Positions 25,363 through 43,962 of a stretch of DNA of 64,000 nt are shown piece by piece (position 1 is the first letter of the stretch; each line of letters opens with the position of its first letter). This stretch comes from Hirschia maritima DSM 19733 (GTDB lineage: Bacteria; Pseudomonadota; Alphaproteobacteria; Caulobacterales; Hyphomonadaceae), in contig NZ_KB899546.1 of assembly GCF_000378345.1 (NCBI RefSeq), positions 62,001 through 126,000 on the forward strand. The letters are read 5' to 3'. Both the position numbers and the translations under genes were made by a program. The notes below the pieces were generated by a model. It was not told the DNA's origin. It made no database searches and was given only the letters and a program-made list of their open reading frames with translations.

Positions 25363-27153
25363 TTAGGGAATAATATCAACTGCTCGAAGATACCTTATCT
25401 CGCCCGTCTCTGGATAAGAGACTAAAATCCAATTTGTAAAATCTGTTTCAGTTTCTGTCGCGACTTCTTCAGCTCTTACACTAATCGCTGACCCAGCCCC
25501 TACACCATTGTCAAAACGTGTGGGTTCCTCAAACACTGGAAACTCGGCAATCCCCGCGTGGTCGTCCAAAATGTTTTCAAAATACAGCCCCTCACCGCCT
25601 GTCTTGGTGATGATAGCTAGGTCTAAACGAGTTTGGTCACCTGGCCGAATACCGCCAAAAGCTCCAGCAACTATTTGAACCGGTACACCTTCAGTCCAAC
25701 GGTATAGCTTGTGCTCTATATCGAGAGTATTTATTGTAAAAGAAAATCCAGCCGGATTTTGTGCTCTAAAACTCTCGCCCGACGGGAATTTTAAATAGAG
25801 TAGCAAATGCTCCCCCGGGTCTGCCCCTGTAGTCATCAGAATCAACATATAATCAGGGGTCGAACTTGCGCCTCCTCCGCCAACCACTTGAACGATTTCC
25901 AAATCTTCCTCAACTCCAGTTGGAAGCGGAACAGAACCCAATTCTTCATAGGGGTGATAAGGGTAAATCAATCCGTTCTCGGATACAGAGACATCTCCGC
26001 CATAAAAAACCAACTCTTTGCTTTTATAATCGACAGCTATAAAATTCCATGCAGAAAAAGGCGTTTCCATAGCAAACGGATAATACTGGTTATCAATTGG
26101 ATAAACGTAACAAAGTGACCTGCCTTCACCCAGGGTTTGATAGATTTCATACTCAAAAGACAAAGCCGTGTTGCCTCCGTAAGTTGGCTCTTTTGGCTGA
26201 ATCCCCATGATGGATATGCCCCTTTCTCGATGCCCAACCCATGCAAAATCAATTCCCTGCTCAGGCGTACCTTTCACAAAACATGCATCTTCAAATGGTA
26301 TTTCTTCCCTTTGGACGTAATGCCTAGACTCCGCGCCATTAGATGATCTCTCATAATCCTCCCCAAACCATTTTAAAGCACCTTCATTTTGGGAAAGAAT
26401 CGTCATTTCATTCCCTCCCAAGGAAACGAATTCTGAACAACATCCATGATAATTCAAGCTTGGAGCATCGATAAAAGAAATATCCTTTAGATCTACATCC
26501 CCAAGTGGATAATGGATCGGGTTCTGAGCAAATAGAGAGTCGGACCAAAATACGACTCTATAATCTTCGTTGGTAAGAGGGTTGGGCTGTTGAACTGCCA
26601 CAATCGCACCAACACTTCCGATCCCGCTAGAGGCCTCAGACAAAAACTTTCGTTCGCCTATTTTAAGCTCAAGTGCGGGCTGGACGACGTCTAGAATTTC
26701 ACCGGGACCCGAAGGAGAGGGCTTCACAAAAACCGAAAAAGTTTCAGTTTTTTCAACGTTCCCCAGGCGTGAAGCGCTGACTTCAAAAACCAACTCAACT
26801 GGTTCATTACCAATTAAGTCTGGAGCAACAAATTCAAATAGTCCAACCAGAACTTCTAATTTGTTATATGCTGCTGGCCCTTCAGTTTGTGTGACGAAAC
26901 CGCGATAGGTTTCATTGTCCGCTAATTCTCTAAGGTCGATCCAGAATTTTCTGTTTTCCCACACTTCGGCGGGAGCAATAATGTTTAGCTCGACTTCCTC
27001 TGTTGGAGTAGGTGTAGGCGTGGGAGTTGATGAGGGACTGGGACTTGCTATTGGAGTTGAGGCAACAGGGGACGTAGAATCTCCCCCTCCCGAGCACCCG
27101 ACAAATAAAACCTGAGCAGCACAAGCAGCGAGCAACCGCAATCCATTTTTCAT
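25363..27153 (-). CDS. Lipoprotein of unknown function
   Basis: A 596-residue predicted lipoprotein: signal peptide with lipobox LFVGC and lipidated Cys20, then a Ser/Pro/Thr-rich linker (STPTPTPTPT), then a large domain rich in beta strands, Tyr, Glu and Phe. The first ~110 residues of the mature part look like an Ig-like or cadherin-like module (VELVFEVSASRLGNVEKTETFSVFVKP). The rest may be a beta-propeller of FG-GAP type, but I see no firm repeat motif. Probably anchored to the outer membrane. It sits directly next to the decayed lyase fragment, so the pair may be left over from a polysaccharide-use island. Confidence 0.7.
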   Translation of the reverse strand: MKNGLRLLAACAAQVLFVGCSGGGDSTSPVASTPIASPSPSSTPTPTPTPTEEVELNIIAPAEVWENRKFWIDLRELADNETYRGFVTQTEGPAAYNKLEVLVGLFEFVAPDLIGNEPVELVFEVSASRLGNVEKTETFSVFVKPSPSGPGEILDVVQPALELKIGERKFLSEASSGIGSVGAIVAVQQPNPLTNEDYRVVFWSDSLFAQNPIHYPLGDVDLKDISFIDAPSLNYHGCCSEFVSLGGNEMTILSQNEGALKWFGEDYERSSNGAESRHYVQREEIPFEDACFVKGTPEQGIDFAWVGHRERGISIMGIQPKEPTYGGNTALSFEYEIYQTLGEGRSLCYVYPIDNQYYPFAMETPFSAWNFIAVDYKSKELVFYGGDVSVSENGLIYPYHPYEELGSVPLPTGVEEDLEIVQVVGGGGASSTPDYMLILMTTGADPGEHLLLYLKFPSGESFRAQNPAGFSFTINTLDIEHKLYRWTEGVPVQIVAGAFGGIRPGDQTRLDLAIITKTGGEGLYFENILDDHAGIAEFPVFEEPTRFDNGVGAGSAISVRAEEVATETETDFTNWILVSYPETGEIRYLRAVDIIP

Positions 27154-31270: not shown

Positions 31271-32668
31271 CTAATACCGATAATGCTCTGGCTTGAATGG
31301 GCCTTCAGTTTTTACACCGATATAGTCAGCTTGTTCTTGCGATAATTCAGTCAGCTCAACGCCGATTTTCTCAAGGTGAAGACGCGCAACTTTTTCATCC
31401 AAATGCTTTGGAAGAATATAAACTTCGTTTTTATATTCATCACCTTTAGTCCAAAGCTCGATCTGAGCCAGAACTTGGTTTGTGAAAGACGCTGACATCA
31501 CGAATGACGGGTGTCCTGTCGCGTTACCAAGGTTTAGCAAACGACCTTGAGACAACAGGATCATACGATTACCAGATGGCATTTCATACATGTCCACCTG
31601 ATCTTTGATGTTTGTCATCTTCAAATTTTGTAGGCTCGACACCTGAATTTCATTGTCGAAGTGACCAATGTTACCAACAATGGCCATATCTTTCATTTCG
31701 CGCATGTGCTCAAAACGGATGATGTCTTTGTTACCTGTTGTGGTCACAAAGATATCTGCTTCGGGAACAGCTTTTTCCAATGTCGTAACTTCAAAACCGT
31801 CCATAGCAGCTTGCAATGCACAGATAGGGTCGATCTCTGTCACCTTCACACGTGCACCAGCACCGCGCAGAGACGCAGCAGAGCCTTTACCCACATCTCC
31901 ATAACCACACACAACAGCTGTTTTACCTGCCATCATCGTGTCAGTTGCGCGGCGGATACCATCCACAAGAGACTCTTTACATCCATATTTGTTGTCAAAC
32001 TTGGATTTCGTCACACTGTCGTTTACATTGATAGCCGGGAAAGGAAGCAGCCCTTTTTCAACCAATTCATATAAACGGTGCACACCTGTTGTCGTCTCTT
32101 CGGAAACACCTTGGATTGCATCACGCTGTTTAGTAAACCAACCTGGAGATGCCTCTAAGCGAGTTTTAATCTGAGCGAAGATTGCTTCTTCTTCTTCAGA
32201 TTTTGGGTTTTCAAGAAGTTCCATCTCGCCATTTTCAGCGCGCGCTCCCAAAAGCACATACAATGTAGCGTCACCACCATCATCAAGGATCAAGTTGGCT
32301 GTACCTTCTTCAAATTGGAAAATACGGTCTTGGTAATCCCAGTGTTCTTCTAGGTTTTGACCTTTAACAGCGAAAACAGGAATTTCTGCTGCAGCCATTG
32401 CAGCAGCTGCGTGATCTTGTGTTGAGAAAATGTTACAAGAAGCCCAGCGAATTTCTGCCCCAAGCGCCGTCAGCGTTTCCATCAAAACTGCTGTCTGAAT
32501 GGTCATGTGAAGAGAGCCAGCGATACGTGCGCCTTTGAGAGGCTGTTCTTCTTTATACTCTTCCCGGATAGACATCAGGCCCGGCATTTCCGTTTCTGCG
32601 ATGTCTAATTCTTTACGTCCAAAATCAGCTAGAGCAATGTCTTTTACGAGGTAATCAGTAAATGCCAT
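31271..32668 (-). CDS. ahcY: Adenosylhomocysteinase
   Basis: Cytoplasmic NAD-dependent hydrolase that splits S-adenosylhomocysteine into adenosine and homocysteine, keeping methylation reactions running. The 465-residue product shows [56 protein letters not shown], the NAD-binding [30 protein letters not shown] and the C-terminal [10 protein letters not shown] ending that contributes to the neighbouring active site. Length is typical for the proteobacterial form with its inserted segment. AGGA lies upstream of the start. I looked for an SAH riboswitch upstream and did not see one. Confidence 0.97.
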
Positions 32669-33499: not shown

Positions 33500-33769
33500 C
33501 TATTCAGATTCTCCAAACTTGTTCTCTATCAATGAAACTATAGCGTTCAACGCGACTTCTGCATCAGGACCTTCAGCACTGACCTCAACCTGACAGCCTT
33601 TATAAGCTGCAAGCATCAGCAAATCCATTACAGCAATGGCTGATGCATTTTCTCCTTCGTGAGATACGGTTATTTGTGCATCATGCTTTTGCGCTTCTCT
33701 TGCCAGAGCAGCCGAAGCTCTCGCGTGCAGCCCTTTTTTGTTACAAATTTCTGTCGTTTGGGAGATCAT
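33500..33769 (-). CDS. ptsH: HPr-like phosphocarrier with Ala at position 46
   Basis: PTS phosphocarrier protein, 89 residues. The catalytic histidine is His15 in NKKGLHARASA, so phosphotransfer from enzyme I to EIIA should work. Aligned without gaps to E. coli HPr, position 46, normally the serine phosphorylated by HPr kinase, is alanine (NASAIAVMDLLML). No hprK gene is present in the cluster. It follows the EIIA gene by eight bases and is likely the last gene of the ChvI-ChvG-EIIA-HPr unit. In alphaproteobacteria such incomplete PTS systems act in regulation rather than sugar uptake. Confidence 0.92.
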   Translation of the reverse strand: MISQTTEICNKKGLHARASAALAREAQKHDAQITVSHEGENASAIAVMDLLMLAAYKGCQVEVSAEGPDAEVALNAIVSLIENKFGESE

Positions 33770-33777
33770 TGAACTTA

Positions 33778-34182
33778 TTATGATTTCTGCAGAACCAACG
33801 AGGCTATGGAAATATACTTGCGGCCAGCCTCTTGTACAGCCAGTGCCACCTCGTCCATTGATCGGTCTTTACGCACTTCCGCGACTTTTATCAGCATGGG
33901 TAAGTTTACCCCCGCAATCACTTCAATCTTAGCCTGCCCCATTACTGAAATGGCCAAATTGGAAGGTGTGCCACCAAACATGTCAGTAAACACAATTACG
34001 CCTTCACCGGAGTCACACTTAGCAGCAATGTCTATGATCTCTTGACGACGCTGTTCCATGTCATCATCGGCATCTATACAAATAGCTTCAAACGCTTCTT
34101 GCTGCCCAAATACATGCTCAGTTGCAGCTACAAACTCTCTGGCAAGACCACCATGAGTTACGACGACGACGCCAATCATCAA
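33778..34182 (-). CDS. PTS EIIA component, mannose family
   Basis: A free-standing EIIA of the mannose/fructose family, 134 residues, with phosphorylated His10 in VVVVTHGGLAREF and the FTDMFGGTPSNLA segment. No EIIB, C or D genes lie nearby, so it is part of the regulatory PTS (EIIA-Man) known from alphaproteobacteria. It precedes HPr by eight bases and follows chvG after 77 bases, the place where hprK usually sits; no reading frame of that kind fits there. Confidence 0.9.
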   Translation of the reverse strand: MMIGVVVVTHGGLAREFVAATEHVFGQQEAFEAICIDADDDMEQRRQEIIDIAAKCDSGEGVIVFTDMFGGTPSNLAISVMGQAKIEVIAGVNLPMLIKVAEVRKDRSMDEVALAVQEAGRKYISIASLVLQKS

Positions 34183-34259
34183 TTATTCTCCAAATTTCTT
34201 CTTGAAGAAAATCAGACGTCTGAAATAGCTTCGGGTCAAGACAAAAATGTCAGGATTCA

Positions 34260-35882
34260 TCAGCGAATAGGTAAACGTACGACAAACTGTGCCCCTAAAA
34301 CCTCACCTAATGAACCGTTGGCGTTGTTTTGTTTACGATTCCGCACAAATACCTGACCATAATGCGTTTCCACAATTTGCTTCACAATGGATAAGCCAAG
34401 TCCTGAATTATTTCCGAACTGAGCGCCTTTGGGACGGTCGGAATAAAACCGTTCAAATATTTTCTCTAATTTGTCCTCAGGGACACCCGGCCCATCATCA
34501 TCAAATGTCATTGTTATAAATTCAGATTCGCGCACAGCCGTAATGGTTACAGTACCGTTTTCTGGAGAGAAAGAACGGGCGTTTTCCACAAGGTTTCGGA
34601 TCACCTGTGCTAATGGTCCTTCGCGCGCTTTCAAGGCCAAAGCGCCTTCAGTCGTGTCGATATTCAACACAACATTAGGCTGCCCCTCTTTTCGAGTATC
34701 TTGCCAAATAGACACGAGGTCTTCCAACAATTTTTGAAGATCAACATTGGTCGCTTTTTCGCGCGCTATTTCAGCTTCCAATCGTGATGCGTTCGAAATA
34801 TCTGTGATCAAACGATCAAGCCTGACAACATCCTTTGCAATCACTGCTCGCATACGATCTCTCACCGCGGGATCATCAACAACTTCAGAGGTTTCAACGG
34901 CTGAACGAATAGACGTCAGAGGGTTTTTCAACTCATGCGCAACATCTGCTGCAAAGCGTTCATTTAGAACGATGCGGTCATGTAAAGCCCCCGTCATCGC
35001 TTCAAGCGCTTTGGCGAGATCTCCAATTTCATCATTGCGTTTGGACATGACCGGCATATCCAGACGTTTGAGTTTTCCCGACCGAACCCGGTCTGCGGCT
35101 ATAGAAAGACGCCTTAAAGGGCGCGCAATACCAGCAGTCAACAAGAATGAAGTGACCAATGATACCAAGACGGCAACAGAGATAATAGGAGCAAGAGCTG
35201 CACGCTCTGCCCTGATGATATCCTCAACATCACTTGCCTCAACGGTCAGTACCCCTACAACGGCAGATACATATTTGACCGGCACAGACACCGAGATCAC
35301 GCGCTCACCTCGTTCAGTGAAACGTTGCGCAGCAGCGTTTTTGCCAGACAAAGCGATAGATAATTCTTCTTCTAAAGATTGCGCTGCATTGGCGCTTGAG
35401 TTTTCACTACGCCTGTTGATCATGTTGGAAATATTGCGCGATATTCCAACAGCCATCTTATCTAGCATTCCCGGTTCTTTTAACGGGGGCAATTCAGACG
35501 TTTTGATAAATTCTTCGAGCAGAAAACTATCAGCGATCAATTCAAGATCAGCTGAATACAATCGCACTCTTGTTTTTTCCGGCGCTTGAAGCCGTTTCAA
35601 AGAAGAACGCGACAGGCTTTCATTTAGTGTTGGTTTTGGTACGCCCGATGTCGCAGTCAACGATAGCACAGACTCATATGTGAGCGCCTGCGCCTCAAGC
35701 GAATCCGTACGTGCTTGAACGAGCCCAGCACGGATTTCGTTGACAAACAAAGCTCCCGCAATCAGCACCAACAAACCTGCAAGATTAGATGCCAGAATCA
35801 ATCGTGCTATGCGAGACGTAAAAAGTGATTTTAGACTTTTTAAAATTGGTTCAAAGAGGCCTAGCCGTTTGCTATCCATCAT
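34260..35882 (-). CDS. chvG: Sensor histidine kinase ChvG (ExoS)
   Basis: Membrane sensor kinase of the ChvG-ChvI pair, which responds to acid or cell-envelope stress in alphaproteobacteria. The 540-residue product has two membrane helices (about 26-48 and 235-260) flanking a large periplasmic domain, a HAMP linker, the H-box FAADVAHELKNPLTSI, N-box NLVENARSFS and the G-boxes DDDGPGVPEDKL and SGLGLSIVKQIVETHYG. It lies 43 bases after chvI on the same strand. Confidence 0.92.
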   Translation of the reverse strand: MMDSKRLGLFEPILKSLKSLFTSRIARLILASNLAGLLVLIAGALFVNEIRAGLVQARTDSLEAQALTYESVLSLTATSGVPKPTLNESLSRSSLKRLQAPEKTRVRLYSADLELIADSFLLEEFIKTSELPPLKEPGMLDKMAVGISRNISNMINRRSENSSANAAQSLEEELSIALSGKNAAAQRFTERGERVISVSVPVKYVSAVVGVLTVEASDVEDIIRAERAALAPIISVAVLVSLVTSFLLTAGIARPLRRLSIAADRVRSGKLKRLDMPVMSKRNDEIGDLAKALEAMTGALHDRIVLNERFAADVAHELKNPLTSIRSAVETSEVVDDPAVRDRMRAVIAKDVVRLDRLITDISNASRLEAEIAREKATNVDLQKLLEDLVSIWQDTRKEGQPNVVLNIDTTEGALALKAREGPLAQVIRNLVENARSFSPENGTVTITAVRESEFITMTFDDDGPGVPEDKLEKIFERFYSDRPKGAQFGNNSGLGLSIVKQIVETHYGQVFVRNRKQNNANGSLGEVLGAQFVVRLPIR

Positions 35883-35925: not shown

Positions 35926-36618
35926 TTAAGCTTCTTTGTAGCGATACCCAACCCCATAGAGCGTTTCTATTGAATCAAACTCATTATCTTGGTCGCGGAA
36001 TTTTTTACGCAAACGTTTGATGTGACTATCAATCGTGCGATCATCCACATAGACCTGATCATCATAGGCAGCGTCCATCAATTGATCACGGCTTTTCACA
36101 TAACCTGGACGGGTCGACAGTGCTTGCAGAATTAAAAACTCTGTCACTGTCAGGCGAACAACCTCGCCTTTCCAAGTACAAGCGTGGCGATTTGGATCAA
36201 GCGTCAAAGAACCACGAACAATCGTTTTCTTGTCGCCCTCTTCAGACACATTCACACCGCGCGAACGGCGCAATACAGCTTTAACACGCTCAGATAATAA
36301 GCGCATAGAACAAGGCTTACGGATAAAATCATCTGCTCCGATGTTGAAGCCAACAACTTCGTCGATTTCGTCATCTTTAGAAGTAAGGAATATCGCTGGT
36401 AAATTGGATGTCTGACGCAAACGACGCAGCAATTCCATTCCATCCATCTTCGGCATTTTAACATCAAGAATAGCCAGCTCTGGTGGCTGCTCAGCTAAAC
36501 CTTGCAGTGCGGACTCCCCGTCATGGTAAGCACGTACAGTATAGCCCTCAGCTTCAAAAAACAGTTTTAAACTTTCAACAATGTTTTCGTCATCATCTAC
36601 CAAAGCGATAGTCGTCAT
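35926..36618 (-). CDS. chvI: Response regulator ChvI
   Basis: OmpR-family response regulator, 230 residues: receiver domain with phosphorylation Asp in [13 protein letters not shown] and acidic pair DDDEN at the N-terminus, then a winged-helix DNA-binding domain ending in [16 protein letters not shown]. It is the partner of ChvG downstream. First gene of the leftward chvI-chvG-EIIA-HPr group; its promoter should lie in 36619-36740. Confidence 0.94.
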
Positions 36619-39282: not shown

Positions 39283-40068
39283 TTATTCAAAGACACTTTC
39301 CCAGTAATCAGCTGCTTGCGCGATCTTTGCTGATTTGATGATCCGTCTTTTTTCTACGGTAGTTAATAAATCTGACAGAATATTATTGGTGTTTGACGGA
39401 TCTTCAATACGACAATTTAAAAGCGGATTAGAAACGTCCCGCGCTAATTCGTTGAACACGTGCCCCAGATTGTCGGACAAATTAGACAATGATCTACCCG
39501 ATAGAATTTGAAACGTAAGCAAATATTCCATATACACAGACGGAAAATCTAAGCTATTTTTCTCTCTCCAAATTTTCAGTAATTTTATCTCTTTAGTTCG
39601 TCCTGATTTAGCTATGTCAATTATATGCCTACGTACATTGGTCTGAACGTAAGATTGCTTTTTCGTAGAATATATCCAATGCTTATGTGTAAAGTTTGGC
39701 ACTTTTCGAGCTGGAGTTACATCTACCGCTAAACCAGATAAGTTTAAGCCGACTGAAACATTTTGTTCCCTCAAGTTTGGATAATGGGTCTTCATTTCCG
39801 CTACAAAACTTGAATTTAAACCCCTTAACCCTCCATTCCCGTCATTGCACTTGCTAGAAAGTGAAACTACTATATCGACATCAGAACTAGGAAAGACAGC
39901 AGTGTTCTTAGCTCTAGAACCAGATATAATTATACAGTCATAACAATCGTGAGCCCATTCTTTGAGAACATCGAAGAGAAAATCCAGCTCTTCTCTATAA
40001 TCCGACAAATCAAAAACTTCATGATTTTGTAAAACCGATGTTAAATATTGATCCGCCGCACTAGTCAT
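39283..40068 (-). CDS. CD-NTase-like nucleotidyltransferase (CBASS-type candidate)
   Basis: A 261-residue enzyme of the polymerase-beta nucleotidyltransferase fold. Active-site elements are all present: GSRAKNT with Gly50-Ser51, the acidic pair Asp63 and Asp65 in SSDVDIVV, and the third Asp116 in LAVDVTPAR. The C-terminal helical part has IKLLKIWREKNSLDFPSVYMEYLL, as in OAS-like/CD-NTase proteins that make signalling nucleotides. ATG 40068 overlaps the stop of the upstream membrane-protein gene by eight bases (ATGACTAG) and has no strong ribosome-binding site, so it is probably translationally coupled. A tRNA- or antibiotic-modifying role is less likely but not excluded. AT-rich, flanked by repeats. 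Confidence 0.75.
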   Translation of the reverse strand: MTSAADQYLTSVLQNHEVFDLSDYREELDFLFDVLKEWAHDCYDCIIISGSRAKNTAVFPSSDVDIVVSLSSKCNDGNGGLRGLNSSFVAEMKTHYPNLREQNVSVGLNLSGLAVDVTPARKVPNFTHKHWIYSTKKQSYVQTNVRRHIIDIAKSGRTKEIKLLKIWREKNSLDFPSVYMEYLLTFQILSGRSLSNLSDNLGHVFNELARDVSNPLLNCRIEDPSNTNNILSDLLTTVEKRRIIKSAKIAQAADYWESVFE

Positions 40069-40570
40069 TTCGAGTTGCAATCACAGCAAGTATCAAATCA
40101 TTCACGAGCCGTCCGCGCGTATTCGTAATATTTGTCAAAGGTTTATTTGCAACTTTTGACATTTCTTCTCTTGGTATGGCACCCGGCTCTGCATAAATTA
40201 ATATAGGCGTTTGATCATTTTTTCTCATGCTAAATATCTCATCAATTGAATGGCCGAATTCTGCATAATCAACTAAAAAAACACTGCATTTTTTGGCAGT
40301 ATCCGAATCTAAAGGACGTACTTCGGAAATATTTTTTTCCTTAAAGAGTCCTGTCCGCACAATACAGTCTTTTAGCATGTGCAGACTGTCACCAGCCGAA
40401 AACACAGCAATCTTTCGCTTAGAAAGCCCTAGCCCCAAACGCAAAAGAACAGGCGAGACACCAGAGAACCAAAGAAACACATTTACCAATGTACCAAGAA
40501 GCAACACAATTGATGAAATGGCTCCTACAATATTAAAAAAGGGGTGTTGAAAGAAAGAAATTAAATCCAC
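40061..40570 (-). CDS. One-TM membrane protein with Rossmann-like domain, candidate effector
   Basis: A 169-residue protein: one membrane helix (about 13-40), then a compact alpha/beta domain (about 50-165) with strands KIAVFSAG, CSVFLVDYAE and TPILIYAEPG, ending in NTRGRLVNDLILAVIAT. I do not recognise the domain; it looks receiver- or TIR-like in layout but lacks clear catalytic residues. GTG 40570 is the start, with GGAAA upstream. It precedes and overlaps the nucleotidyltransferase gene, the typical arrangement of a nucleotide-activated membrane effector in two-gene CBASS. That role is inferred from neighbourhood only. Confidence 0.65.
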   Translation of the reverse strand: MDLISFFQHPFFNIVGAISSIVLLLGTLVNVFLWFSGVSPVLLRLGLGLSKRKIAVFSAGDSLHMLKDCIVRTGLFKEKNISEVRPLDSDTAKKCSVFLVDYAEFGHSIDEIFSMRKNDQTPILIYAEPGAIPREEMSKVANKPLTNITNTRGRLVNDLILAVIATRND

Positions 40571-41097: not shown

Positions 41098-43962
41098 TTA
41101 ATGCGCTTCAGCCCAAGAACAAGCCGCTTCTGCTTCAACGACGAGTGGCACCGATAAATCCATCACGGGGAAAGTGGCTGTTTCCATCACTTTTTTGACG
41201 ACAGAGATTGTCTTTTCCGCTTCTGACTTTGGCGCTTCAAAGATCAATTCGTCATGCACTTGCAACAGCATTTTAGCTTTCAAACCGGACTTCTCCAGTG
41301 CACTAGGCATTTTCACCATGGCGCGCTTGATAATGTCTGCGGCTGAGCCTTGAAGCGGCGCATTGATCGCCTGACGTTCGGCAAAACTACGCTCTGGCCC
41401 TTTGCCATTTATTCCCTTCACCCAGATGCGGCGCCCAAAGGCGGTTTCCACATAGCCCTTCTCTTTGGCAAAGGCTTTGGCTTCATCCATATATTTCAAA
41501 ATACCAGGGAATTTAGCATTGTAAGCTTTGATATAATCAGAGGCTTCACCGCGCGGAATGCTCAATTGACGAGCCAAACCAAAAGCGGAAATTCCGTAGA
41601 TAATTCCAAAATTAATCGCTTTGGCTTTGCGGCGTATCATCGGGTCCATGCCGTCCACAGGCACGCCAAACATTTCCGATGCTGTCATAGCGTGAATATC
41701 TATTTCATTGATAAAAGCATCTTTCAGAGCATCAATATTTCCGATGTGAGCTAGCAAACGTAGTTCTATCTGAGAATAGTCTGCCGCAATCAAGACATTC
41801 CCCTCTTCGGCAACAAAAGCACCGCGAATTTTGCGGCCTTCTTCTGTACGAATTGGAATGTTTTGAAGGTTGGGATCAGATGAAGATAAACGCCCTGTCT
41901 GTGCTCCCACCAGATTAAAGCTTGTGTGCACACGGCCAGTTACGCTGTCGATGTTTTCGTTCAATGCATCTGTGTATGTCGATTTCAGCTTGGATAAAGA
42001 TCTCCAACCCAAAATCGCTTTGGGCAATTCATGACCTTCTGCGGCAAGGTCTTCAAGCGTATCTGCACCAGTAGACCACGCGCCAGTTTTGGTTTTCTTA
42101 CCGCCGGGAAGTTCCATTTCACCAAACAGTATTTCACCCAATTGTTTGGGACTACCTAGATTAAATTCTCTTCCTGCGAGTTTATAGGATTCATCCTCAT
42201 ACTGCGCCATACGCTGGGCAAAATCACCCGACAAACGTGACAAGGTTTCGCGCTCGACGAACACACCTTCGCGTTCCATCTGCGCAACGACATCAACCAT
42301 GGGGCGCTCTATGGTCTCATACAAGGTCATCATACCTTCTGCAGACAGGCGTGGCTTTAGCAACTGCCATAAACGCAGGGTAACATCTGCATCTTCAGCG
42401 GCATATTTAGTCGCTTCGGGAACTGGCACTTTATCAAAAGTGATCTGCTTTTTGCCGGTACCAGCTACATCTTTGAAAGTAATAGGTTTATGGTCAAAGT
42501 GCAGTTCTGAAAGCACATCCATACCATGATTATGCTGTCCTGCTTCCAATGTGGCGGAGATCAGCATTGTGTCATCTACAGGATATGGATTTATCGGCGT
42601 ATCCAGATATTGCTCGCCAGCTTTATGGAAAACATTCACATCATATTTGAAATTCTGACCCACTTTCAAAATACTAGGATCTTCTAGCATTTCCTTCAAT
42701 ATGGACAAGGCCAGCTTCATATCCAGCTGTTCAGGCGCGCCATCACCTAATAAATCGCCATCGCCAGTGTGGCCAAGCGGGATATAACAAGCATCATTTG
42801 GCCCAAGCGCTAAAGACACACCGACCAAGTTTGCGCCAATAGCATCAAGGCCATCTGTTTCGGTATCAACACCAATAACACCGACCGCTTTTGCACGTTC
42901 CATCCATTCGATGAGGTCATCTTGCTTGATCACTGTCGTATAGAGTGAAGCATCTATGGCAGCTGCCTGCTGAGCCACTGGCATAGTGGCTGCCCCCTCT
43001 TCGCTCCCCCCTTGTGATAGCTCAGCTCCACCGCCGAGCTTATCAGTCACGCGGCGTGTGATGGTGCGAAATTCCATCTCATTTAAGAAAGGTACAAGCT
43101 CTTCCAAGTCTGGGTCACTTGTCCCAAATTCTTCAATTGCAACGGGCACAGGCGTATCCACATCCAACGTCACTAATTTATAAGATATCCGCGCATCATC
43201 TGTGAACTCTACCAGATTTTCGTGGCGTTTGAATGTTAACAAGTCATGCGGTTTGTTTTTCTTGTCAGGCGTGTGCTCATTTGAGAATGCAAGAAGGCTT
43301 TCAAGGTCACCAAATTCATTGATCAATTGTGCTGCCGTTTTCAAGCCGATACCTGGCACGCCCGGCACATTATCCACGCTATCACCCGCCAAAGCTTGAA
43401 CATGGGTTACGCGGTCTGGCATCACACCAAATTTAGCCTGCACTTCATCATAGGATAAATGCTTATCTTTCATCGTATCGAGCATGGAAACTTTATCAGT
43501 CACCAGCTGCATGAGGTCTTTATCAGACGATACAATAGACACACGCGCACCTTTAGCTTCAGCAATACGCGCATATGCGGCGATCAAATCATCCGCTTCA
43601 TAGTTTTCTAGTTCGATAGCAGGTGTACCAAACGCCATTGCCGCACGTCTGACCAATGGAAATTGCGGTACTAAATCTTCAGGAGCTGGCGGACGCTGCG
43701 CCTTATACCTCGGGTCAATGTCATTTCGAAATGTCTTGCTAGACGCATCGAAAATACACGCAAAGTGAGTAGCTGCATCCTTGCCTTTGGTTTCCTCTAA
43801 CAATTTGAAAAGCATGTTACAAAAACCTGACACCGCGCCGACGGGAAGACCATCAGATTTACGCGTTAACGGCGGCAATGCATGGAAGGCACGGAATATA
43901 TATCCAGATGCATCCACCAAAACCAAATGGCTGTCTTCGTTAAGTTCGCGAGTTACTGGCAT
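41098..43962 (-). CDS. polA: DNA polymerase I
   Basis: Repair and Okazaki-fragment polymerase, 954 residues. Domains: 5'-3' exonuclease (about 1-310; VSSDKDLMQLV and DNVPGVPGIGLKTA), 3'-5' proofreading exonuclease (about 350-540, with the intact acidic motif VDTETDG) and polymerase (about 560-954; LIAADYSQIELRLLAH, RRKAKAINFGIIYGISAFGLA, LLQVHDELIFE). Length is normal for alphaproteobacteria. Divergent from kdsB. Confidence 0.97.
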   Translation of the reverse strand: MPVTRELNEDSHLVLVDASGYIFRAFHALPPLTRKSDGLPVGAVSGFCNMLFKLLEETKGKDAATHFACIFDASSKTFRNDIDPRYKAQRPPAPEDLVPQFPLVRRAAMAFGTPAIELENYEADDLIAAYARIAEAKGARVSIVSSDKDLMQLVTDKVSMLDTMKDKHLSYDEVQAKFGVMPDRVTHVQALAGDSVDNVPGVPGIGLKTAAQLINEFGDLESLLAFSNEHTPDKKNKPHDLLTFKRHENLVEFTDDARISYKLVTLDVDTPVPVAIEEFGTSDPDLEELVPFLNEMEFRTITRRVTDKLGGGAELSQGGSEEGAATMPVAQQAAAIDASLYTTVIKQDDLIEWMERAKAVGVIGVDTETDGLDAIGANLVGVSLALGPNDACYIPLGHTGDGDLLGDGAPEQLDMKLALSILKEMLEDPSILKVGQNFKYDVNVFHKAGEQYLDTPINPYPVDDTMLISATLEAGQHNHGMDVLSELHFDHKPITFKDVAGTGKKQITFDKVPVPEATKYAAEDADVTLRLWQLLKPRLSAEGMMTLYETIERPMVDVVAQMEREGVFVERETLSRLSGDFAQRMAQYEDESYKLAGREFNLGSPKQLGEILFGEMELPGGKKTKTGAWSTGADTLEDLAAEGHELPKAILGWRSLSKLKSTYTDALNENIDSVTGRVHTSFNLVGAQTGRLSSSDPNLQNIPIRTEEGRKIRGAFVAEEGNVLIAADYSQIELRLLAHIGNIDALKDAFINEIDIHAMTASEMFGVPVDGMDPMIRRKAKAINFGIIYGISAFGLARQLSIPRGEASDYIKAYNAKFPGILKYMDEAKAFAKEKGYVETAFGRRIWVKGINGKGPERSFAERQAINAPLQGSAADIIKRAMVKMPSALEKSGLKAKMLLQVHDELIFEAPKSEAEKTISVVKKVMETATFPVMDLSVPLVVEAEAACSWAEAH

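Follow-up and report, generated by a model that had tools for sequence, protein, structure and literature searches.

Alanine at position 46 of HPr in Hirschia maritima and the retention of Ser46 in alphaproteobacterial relatives without hprK

An HPr with alanine in place of serine at position 46 is truly rare, and the protein of Hirschia maritima DSM 19733, encoded in the window considered here (the whole stretch of 64,000 nucleotides that was analysed), is such a case. Within a known system this is a minor variant, and a joint loss of the serine and of hprK is unsupported. The locus most likely encodes part of a relay that works through His15 only (PtsP, HPr and EIIA-Man), in a lineage in which hprK was lost early and Ala46 was tolerated later. 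The value of the case is that it points to a retention of Ser46 for reasons other than HprK.

The HPr gene and its neighbourhood

The gene (33500..33769, minus strand) encodes an NPr-type phosphocarrier of 89 amino acids, which matches PF00381 (PTS-HPr) over the full length of the profile (1-81 of 81, E 3.3e-24) and aligns with E. coli HPr (row 1ggr_B) from 2-81 to 2-81, so that the residue numbering is gapless. The motif GLHAR contains both the active-site His15 and the conserved Arg17. Codon 15 is CAC (His, the HPr phosphorylation site; 33725..33727, minus strand) and codon 46 is GCT (Ala, in place of a serine codon; 33632..33634, minus strand), and the description in an earlier note on this DNA, of an HPr aligned without gaps that keeps His15 and carries Ala46, is thus borne out. 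The serine at position 46 that characterises an HprK-regulated HPr is lacking from this protein; Ala46 is unable to bear phosphate and the Ser46 arm cannot operate in this species.

In the AlphaFold2 model (mean pLDDT 97), the secondary structure elements E2-7, H16-27, E32-37, E40-43, H47-53, E60-66 and H70-82 form the four-stranded sheet and the three helices of the HPr fold, with residue 46 directly before helix B (47-53), at the N-cap place. The HPr and NPr of E. coli, which is not known to have HprK, have the HPr fold and the serine is kept in both, in contrast to Ala46 in the window. A sequencing error or a wrong reading frame as the source of Ala46 was ruled out, since the HPr of the sister genome (G110) also has Ala46, with a different third base (GCC versus GCT in the window's own genome, G000). 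The two genes differ by dN 0.19 and dS 1.9 over 80 codons, the latter being near saturation; HPr is thus still under purifying selection.

The gene for an EIIA of the mannose family (EIIA-Man; 33778..34182, minus strand; PF03610, E 3.2e-29; the likelier ATG start is at 34179) ends 8 bases short of the HPr gene and carries a THGG motif with the expected histidine. It is preceded by the genes for a ChvG-type sensor histidine kinase (34260..35882, minus strand; Stimulus_sens_1, Sensor_TM1, HAMP, HisKA and HATPase_c) and a ChvI-type response regulator (35926..36618, minus strand; Response_reg and Trans_reg_C), while an S-adenosylhomocysteine hydrolase gene (ahcY/sahH; 31271..32668, minus strand; PF05221, E 4e-145) lies downstream of HPr. 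The spacer between chvG and the EIIA gene (34183..34259), which is the position of hprK in the hprK-bearing relatives, indeed measures the 77 bases given in the earlier note and holds no hprK; the count is to the TTG of the list of open reading frames and becomes 80 if the adjacent ATG, with GGAG upstream, is used.

Enzyme I is represented in this genome by one match to the EI N-terminal domain (G000:C6:38646-39002). This enzyme I is PtsP, encoded by an open reading frame of 772 amino acids with a GAF domain and three EI domains; the genome thus has the GAF-bearing enzyme I of a nitrogen-type PTS (PTSNtr).

Similar arrangements are described in two publications. One gives, for Brucella and for some further alphaproteobacteria, the succession regulator, sensor kinase, hprK, EIIA-Man, NPr and sahH, with the last four written hprK-ptsM-ptsO-sahH (PMC2937029). 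Brucella melitensis resembles the window in the neighbourhood of two-component system, EIIA-Man, NPr and sahH, and in a GAF-bearing EINtr that feeds NPr at the conserved histidine; it differs in that hprK follows the gene of the sensor kinase and that HprK/P phosphorylates a serine, Ser61; the window has neither that gene nor that serine (PMC2937029). The chvIG-hprK operon of Caulobacter crescentus likewise places the ChvI/ChvG pair beside pts genes but, unlike the window, includes hprK (PMC9731502).

Elsewhere in the window, a frame of 596 residues (25363-27153, minus strand) has neither a Pfam nor a PADLOC match, and a 265-residue CD-NTase-like (oligonucleotide-cyclase-like) protein is encoded at 39283-40080 (minus strand; PADLOC Cyclase PDLC00803, E 2.7e-77; Pfam SMODS weak), between polA (41098-43962) and an open reading frame that by eye resembles a chemotaxis receptor.

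Search for hprK in the genome and in its relatives

Profile searches were performed over the complete assembly of the window's own genome (10 contigs, 99.71% complete) and over 200 genomes of the order, in which the Hyphomonadaceae, the window's family, are designated f1. PF07475 was found to be weak for the truncated HprK of alphaproteobacteria, with several f5 genomes falling under its cut-off; therefore, an alignment (A1) was built from seven such HprK. In the window's own genome neither PF07475, searched genome-wide, nor A1, with 19 of the 22 first-look candidates scored, gave any match, and PF00381 matched only the window gene in the 10 contigs, with no second HPr. Neither hprK elsewhere nor another HPr, the two finds that the earlier note had named as fatal to its reading, has therefore come to light.

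A1 matched 66 of the 200 genomes of the order. Two of these matches, in the f3 genomes G152 and G033 (E 2.9e-5 and 5.2e-4), are partial and do not lie on the HPr contig, and were set aside. By this measure hprK is present in all 40 f2 genomes and in 24 of 40 in f5, and absent from the 41 f1 genomes, from f4 and from genus g11 of f5. Seven genomes, from f3, f4 and g11 (G008, G048, G132, G123, G188, G194 and G198), showed partial matches to PF07475 only, with G198 (f4) above the cut-off and the other six below; A1 confirms none of them, and they were taken as other kinases and counted as hprK-less. At the level of the class, A1 identified hprK in 159 of 270 genomes.

In f1, chvG and EIIA are separated by 58-158 bases, with no hprK (21 loci in 19 genomes); the separation is 61-202 bases in f3 (19 loci) and 57-193 in f4, except for one of 1849 (32 loci). 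It is 491-599 bases in the hprK-bearing f2 (48 loci, some genomes being represented twice) and 70-661 in f5 (38 loci), where both sizes are represented. In 23 of the 42 f1 genomes (18 of genus g2 and five of g3), chvG was not found beside the EIIA and HPr genes in the fetched stretches, seven of which are of only 3.2 kb; the window differs in this from all 18 genomes of g2, to which Hyphomonas polymorpha belongs. In these g2 genomes (such as L074, L075 and L080) and in the five of g3 (L091-L095), the gene ahead of EIIA is, judged by eye, another one. The usual placing of hprK between chvG and EIIA, as given in the earlier note, therefore does not fit the Hyphomonadaceae loci read here, in which chvG either stands close to EIIA or is not found beside it.

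The third genome of the window's genus (G200) has a gap of 58 bases and no HprK match in the 8.4 kb around its EIIA and HPr genes; it was counted as hprK-less from the locus alone, and its estimated contamination is 5%. Among 80 loci of named relatives, hprK is nearby in 71 and absent from nine, of which four (L201, L241, L258 and L261) offer fewer than 1000 upstream bases, too few for a verdict. The Hyphomonas and Henriciella loci (L193, L200 and L237), which belong to the window's family, are without hprK as fetched, and their HPr proteins keep Ser46, unlike the window. RapZ (PF03668) gave no match above the cut-off and one weak match in the 200 genomes of the order, so that as a possible missing neighbour it says nothing on the window locus.

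Residue 46 in relatives and the order of events

The comparison of position 46 drew on 315 HPr domains in 313 genomes, in most cases a single HPr from each; additional HPr matches, which occur in many f2 genomes and some others and mostly lie in frames of more than 700 amino acids, were left out. HPr was found in 185 of the 270 class genomes, three of which are also in the order set. Outside the order, the class contributes 113 genomes, 88 with hprK and 25 without, labelled from the A1 matches; the 88 are from the better-scoring HPr matches. G154 has no HPr match, and the weak match of G452 was not recovered.

Serine is present in 313 of the domains and alanine in two, those of G000 and G110. 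Where hprK is present, all 152 domains have Ser46 (f2 40, f5 24, other class 88). Where it is absent, 161 of 163 have it: f1 contributes 40 with serine and the two with alanine, and f3 (40), f4 (39), f5 (16) and the rest of the class (26) have serine throughout. Eight of these 163 domains lie in long multi-domain frames (G074, G221, G293, G352, G369, G402 and two in G305), two have Asp15 (G316 and G420), and the G355 match is below the family cut-off. At 99.4%, Ser46 ties with His15 and Arg17 and stands behind Gly13 only (columns 5-85). All 80 named loci, a set that overlaps the whole-genome set, also have Ser46, the HPr of L267 being read in two pieces. The Ser46 codons of f1 are TCN in all 41 rows, so that alanine (GCN) is one base away.

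A tree of the C-terminal part of ChvG with EIIA and HPr was inferred with FastTree and midpoint rooted. It covers the 143 genomes with enough of all three proteins (19 f1, 37 f2, 19 f3, 33 f4 and 35 f5), taking only those with chvG beside EIIA, which in f1 are 19 of 42. The three genomes of the genus group together (support 0.997; G000 with G110, 1.0). The families f1 and f3, both hprK-less, are sisters (0.965), and the hprK-bearing f2 adjoins this pair (1.0). Within f5 (1.0), the genomes without hprK form a single clade (1.0). The placement of f4 is weak (0.266), yet outside the group of f1, f2 and f3. If hprK is ancestral, this tree implies that the order lost it three times or more, in f1 with f3, in f4 and in g11 of f5; most likely, the loss that concerns the window took place in the common ancestor of f1 and f3.

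The HPr of G200 has Ser46. Since there is no hprK at its locus, Ala46 appears to have arisen once, within the genus and after the loss of hprK. On the evidence of the tree, with its three genomes of the genus, a single origin in the ancestor of the two Hirschia species is most likely.

Explanations for Ala46

In the preferred reading, PtsP would transfer phosphate, taken from PEP, to HPr at His15, from where it would go on to EIIA-Man, the product of the gene immediately upstream; a working relay of this kind, free of Ser46 control, is what the gene content suggests. The inhibitory Ser46-phosphate arm would have been long absent, following the loss of hprK in the ancestor of f1 and f3. Ser46 may have persisted through a role beyond HprK, probably the capping of helix B: serine at the N-cap place favours the start of a helix, which is one reason to retain it without the kinase. 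The replacement by alanine would have come later, in the ancestor of the two Hirschia species and in a gene under purifying selection, and was probably tolerated rather than adaptive.

A neutral Ala46 has a counterpoint in the near invariance of Ser46 and in the changes at its two neighbours. An adaptive or compensated change, by which Ala46 together with Ile45 and Val47 adjusts how HPr contacts PtsP or EIIA, is rather unlikely. A change at a nearly invariant position may matter; the stretch 45-47 reads I-A-V in the two sister genomes and A-S-I in G200; and a phosphate on the corresponding serine of Brucella NPr is reported to slow transfer to EIIANtr (PMC2937029). However, little can be built on three adjacent changes seen in two genomes, and other f1 genomes combine Ser46 with Ile45 (two genomes) or with Val47 (one).

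A coupled loss, in which the disappearance of hprK left Ser46 without purpose and free to decay, so that protein and locus record one loss, is decidedly unlikely. Both features are missing together in G000 and both cases of Ala46 fall in an hprK-less lineage, but the frequencies of Ala46 without and with hprK (2/163 and 0/152; Fisher p = 0.50, a rough guide owing to the kinship among the genomes) show no tie between residue and kinase gene in the comparison that the earlier note had proposed. As a general rule, the coupling is contradicted by the serine kept over at least three losses of hprK and, within the genus itself, by G200. The retention of Ser46 in nearly all hprK-less domains argues for two losses, of hprK and of Ser46, and not for one event. 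Thus, the regulatory arm is gone from both protein and locus, as the earlier note held, but its picture of a joint loss is unsupported: all 41 f1 genomes searched are without hprK, and 40 of the 42 f1 HPr proteins have kept Ser46. Its view of a PTS that signals through His15 only is a reasonable supposition.

That another kinase keeps Ser46 in place in the hprK-less alphaproteobacteria, and in the Ala46 pair uses another residue such as Ser43 or has been lost, is highly improbable: it would fit the abundance of Ser46 without HprK, the Ser43 of both Ala46 proteins and the report (PMC6916182) that Xanthomonas HprK still phosphorylates S46A PtsH via a second serine, by which an alanine at this position need not by itself abolish phosphorylation on serine, though no HprK is found in the window's genome; but Ser43 is widespread in any case (59 of 315 domains) and a structural role is a simpler account of the conservation of Ser46. 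The broader proposal that alphaproteobacterial Ser46 is held by an HprK-independent function (a second kinase, or contact with PtsP or EIIA), dropped or moved in the Hirschia pair, is rather unlikely; if true, the pair would expose the role of Ser46 without its kinase.

Under the preferred reading of a tolerated change in a relay through His15, loss of the kinase does not free its target serine, at least over the three losses in the order, and Ser46 alone is thus no marker of HprK regulation. The near invariance of Ser46 without its kinase is the better puzzle and needs another explanation, for which two species with Ala46 and a relative with Ser46 in one genus offer a natural comparison of Ser46 function. 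A search of an open-access library brought up no paper on an Ala46 HPr or on the loss of hprK in the Hyphomonadaceae.

The two HPr-like proteins with Asp15, from family f121 (L323 in G316 and L324 in G420; motif NRRGID), keep Ser46 and are not among the A1 matches to hprK. They are perhaps Crh-like, the reverse of the case in the window.
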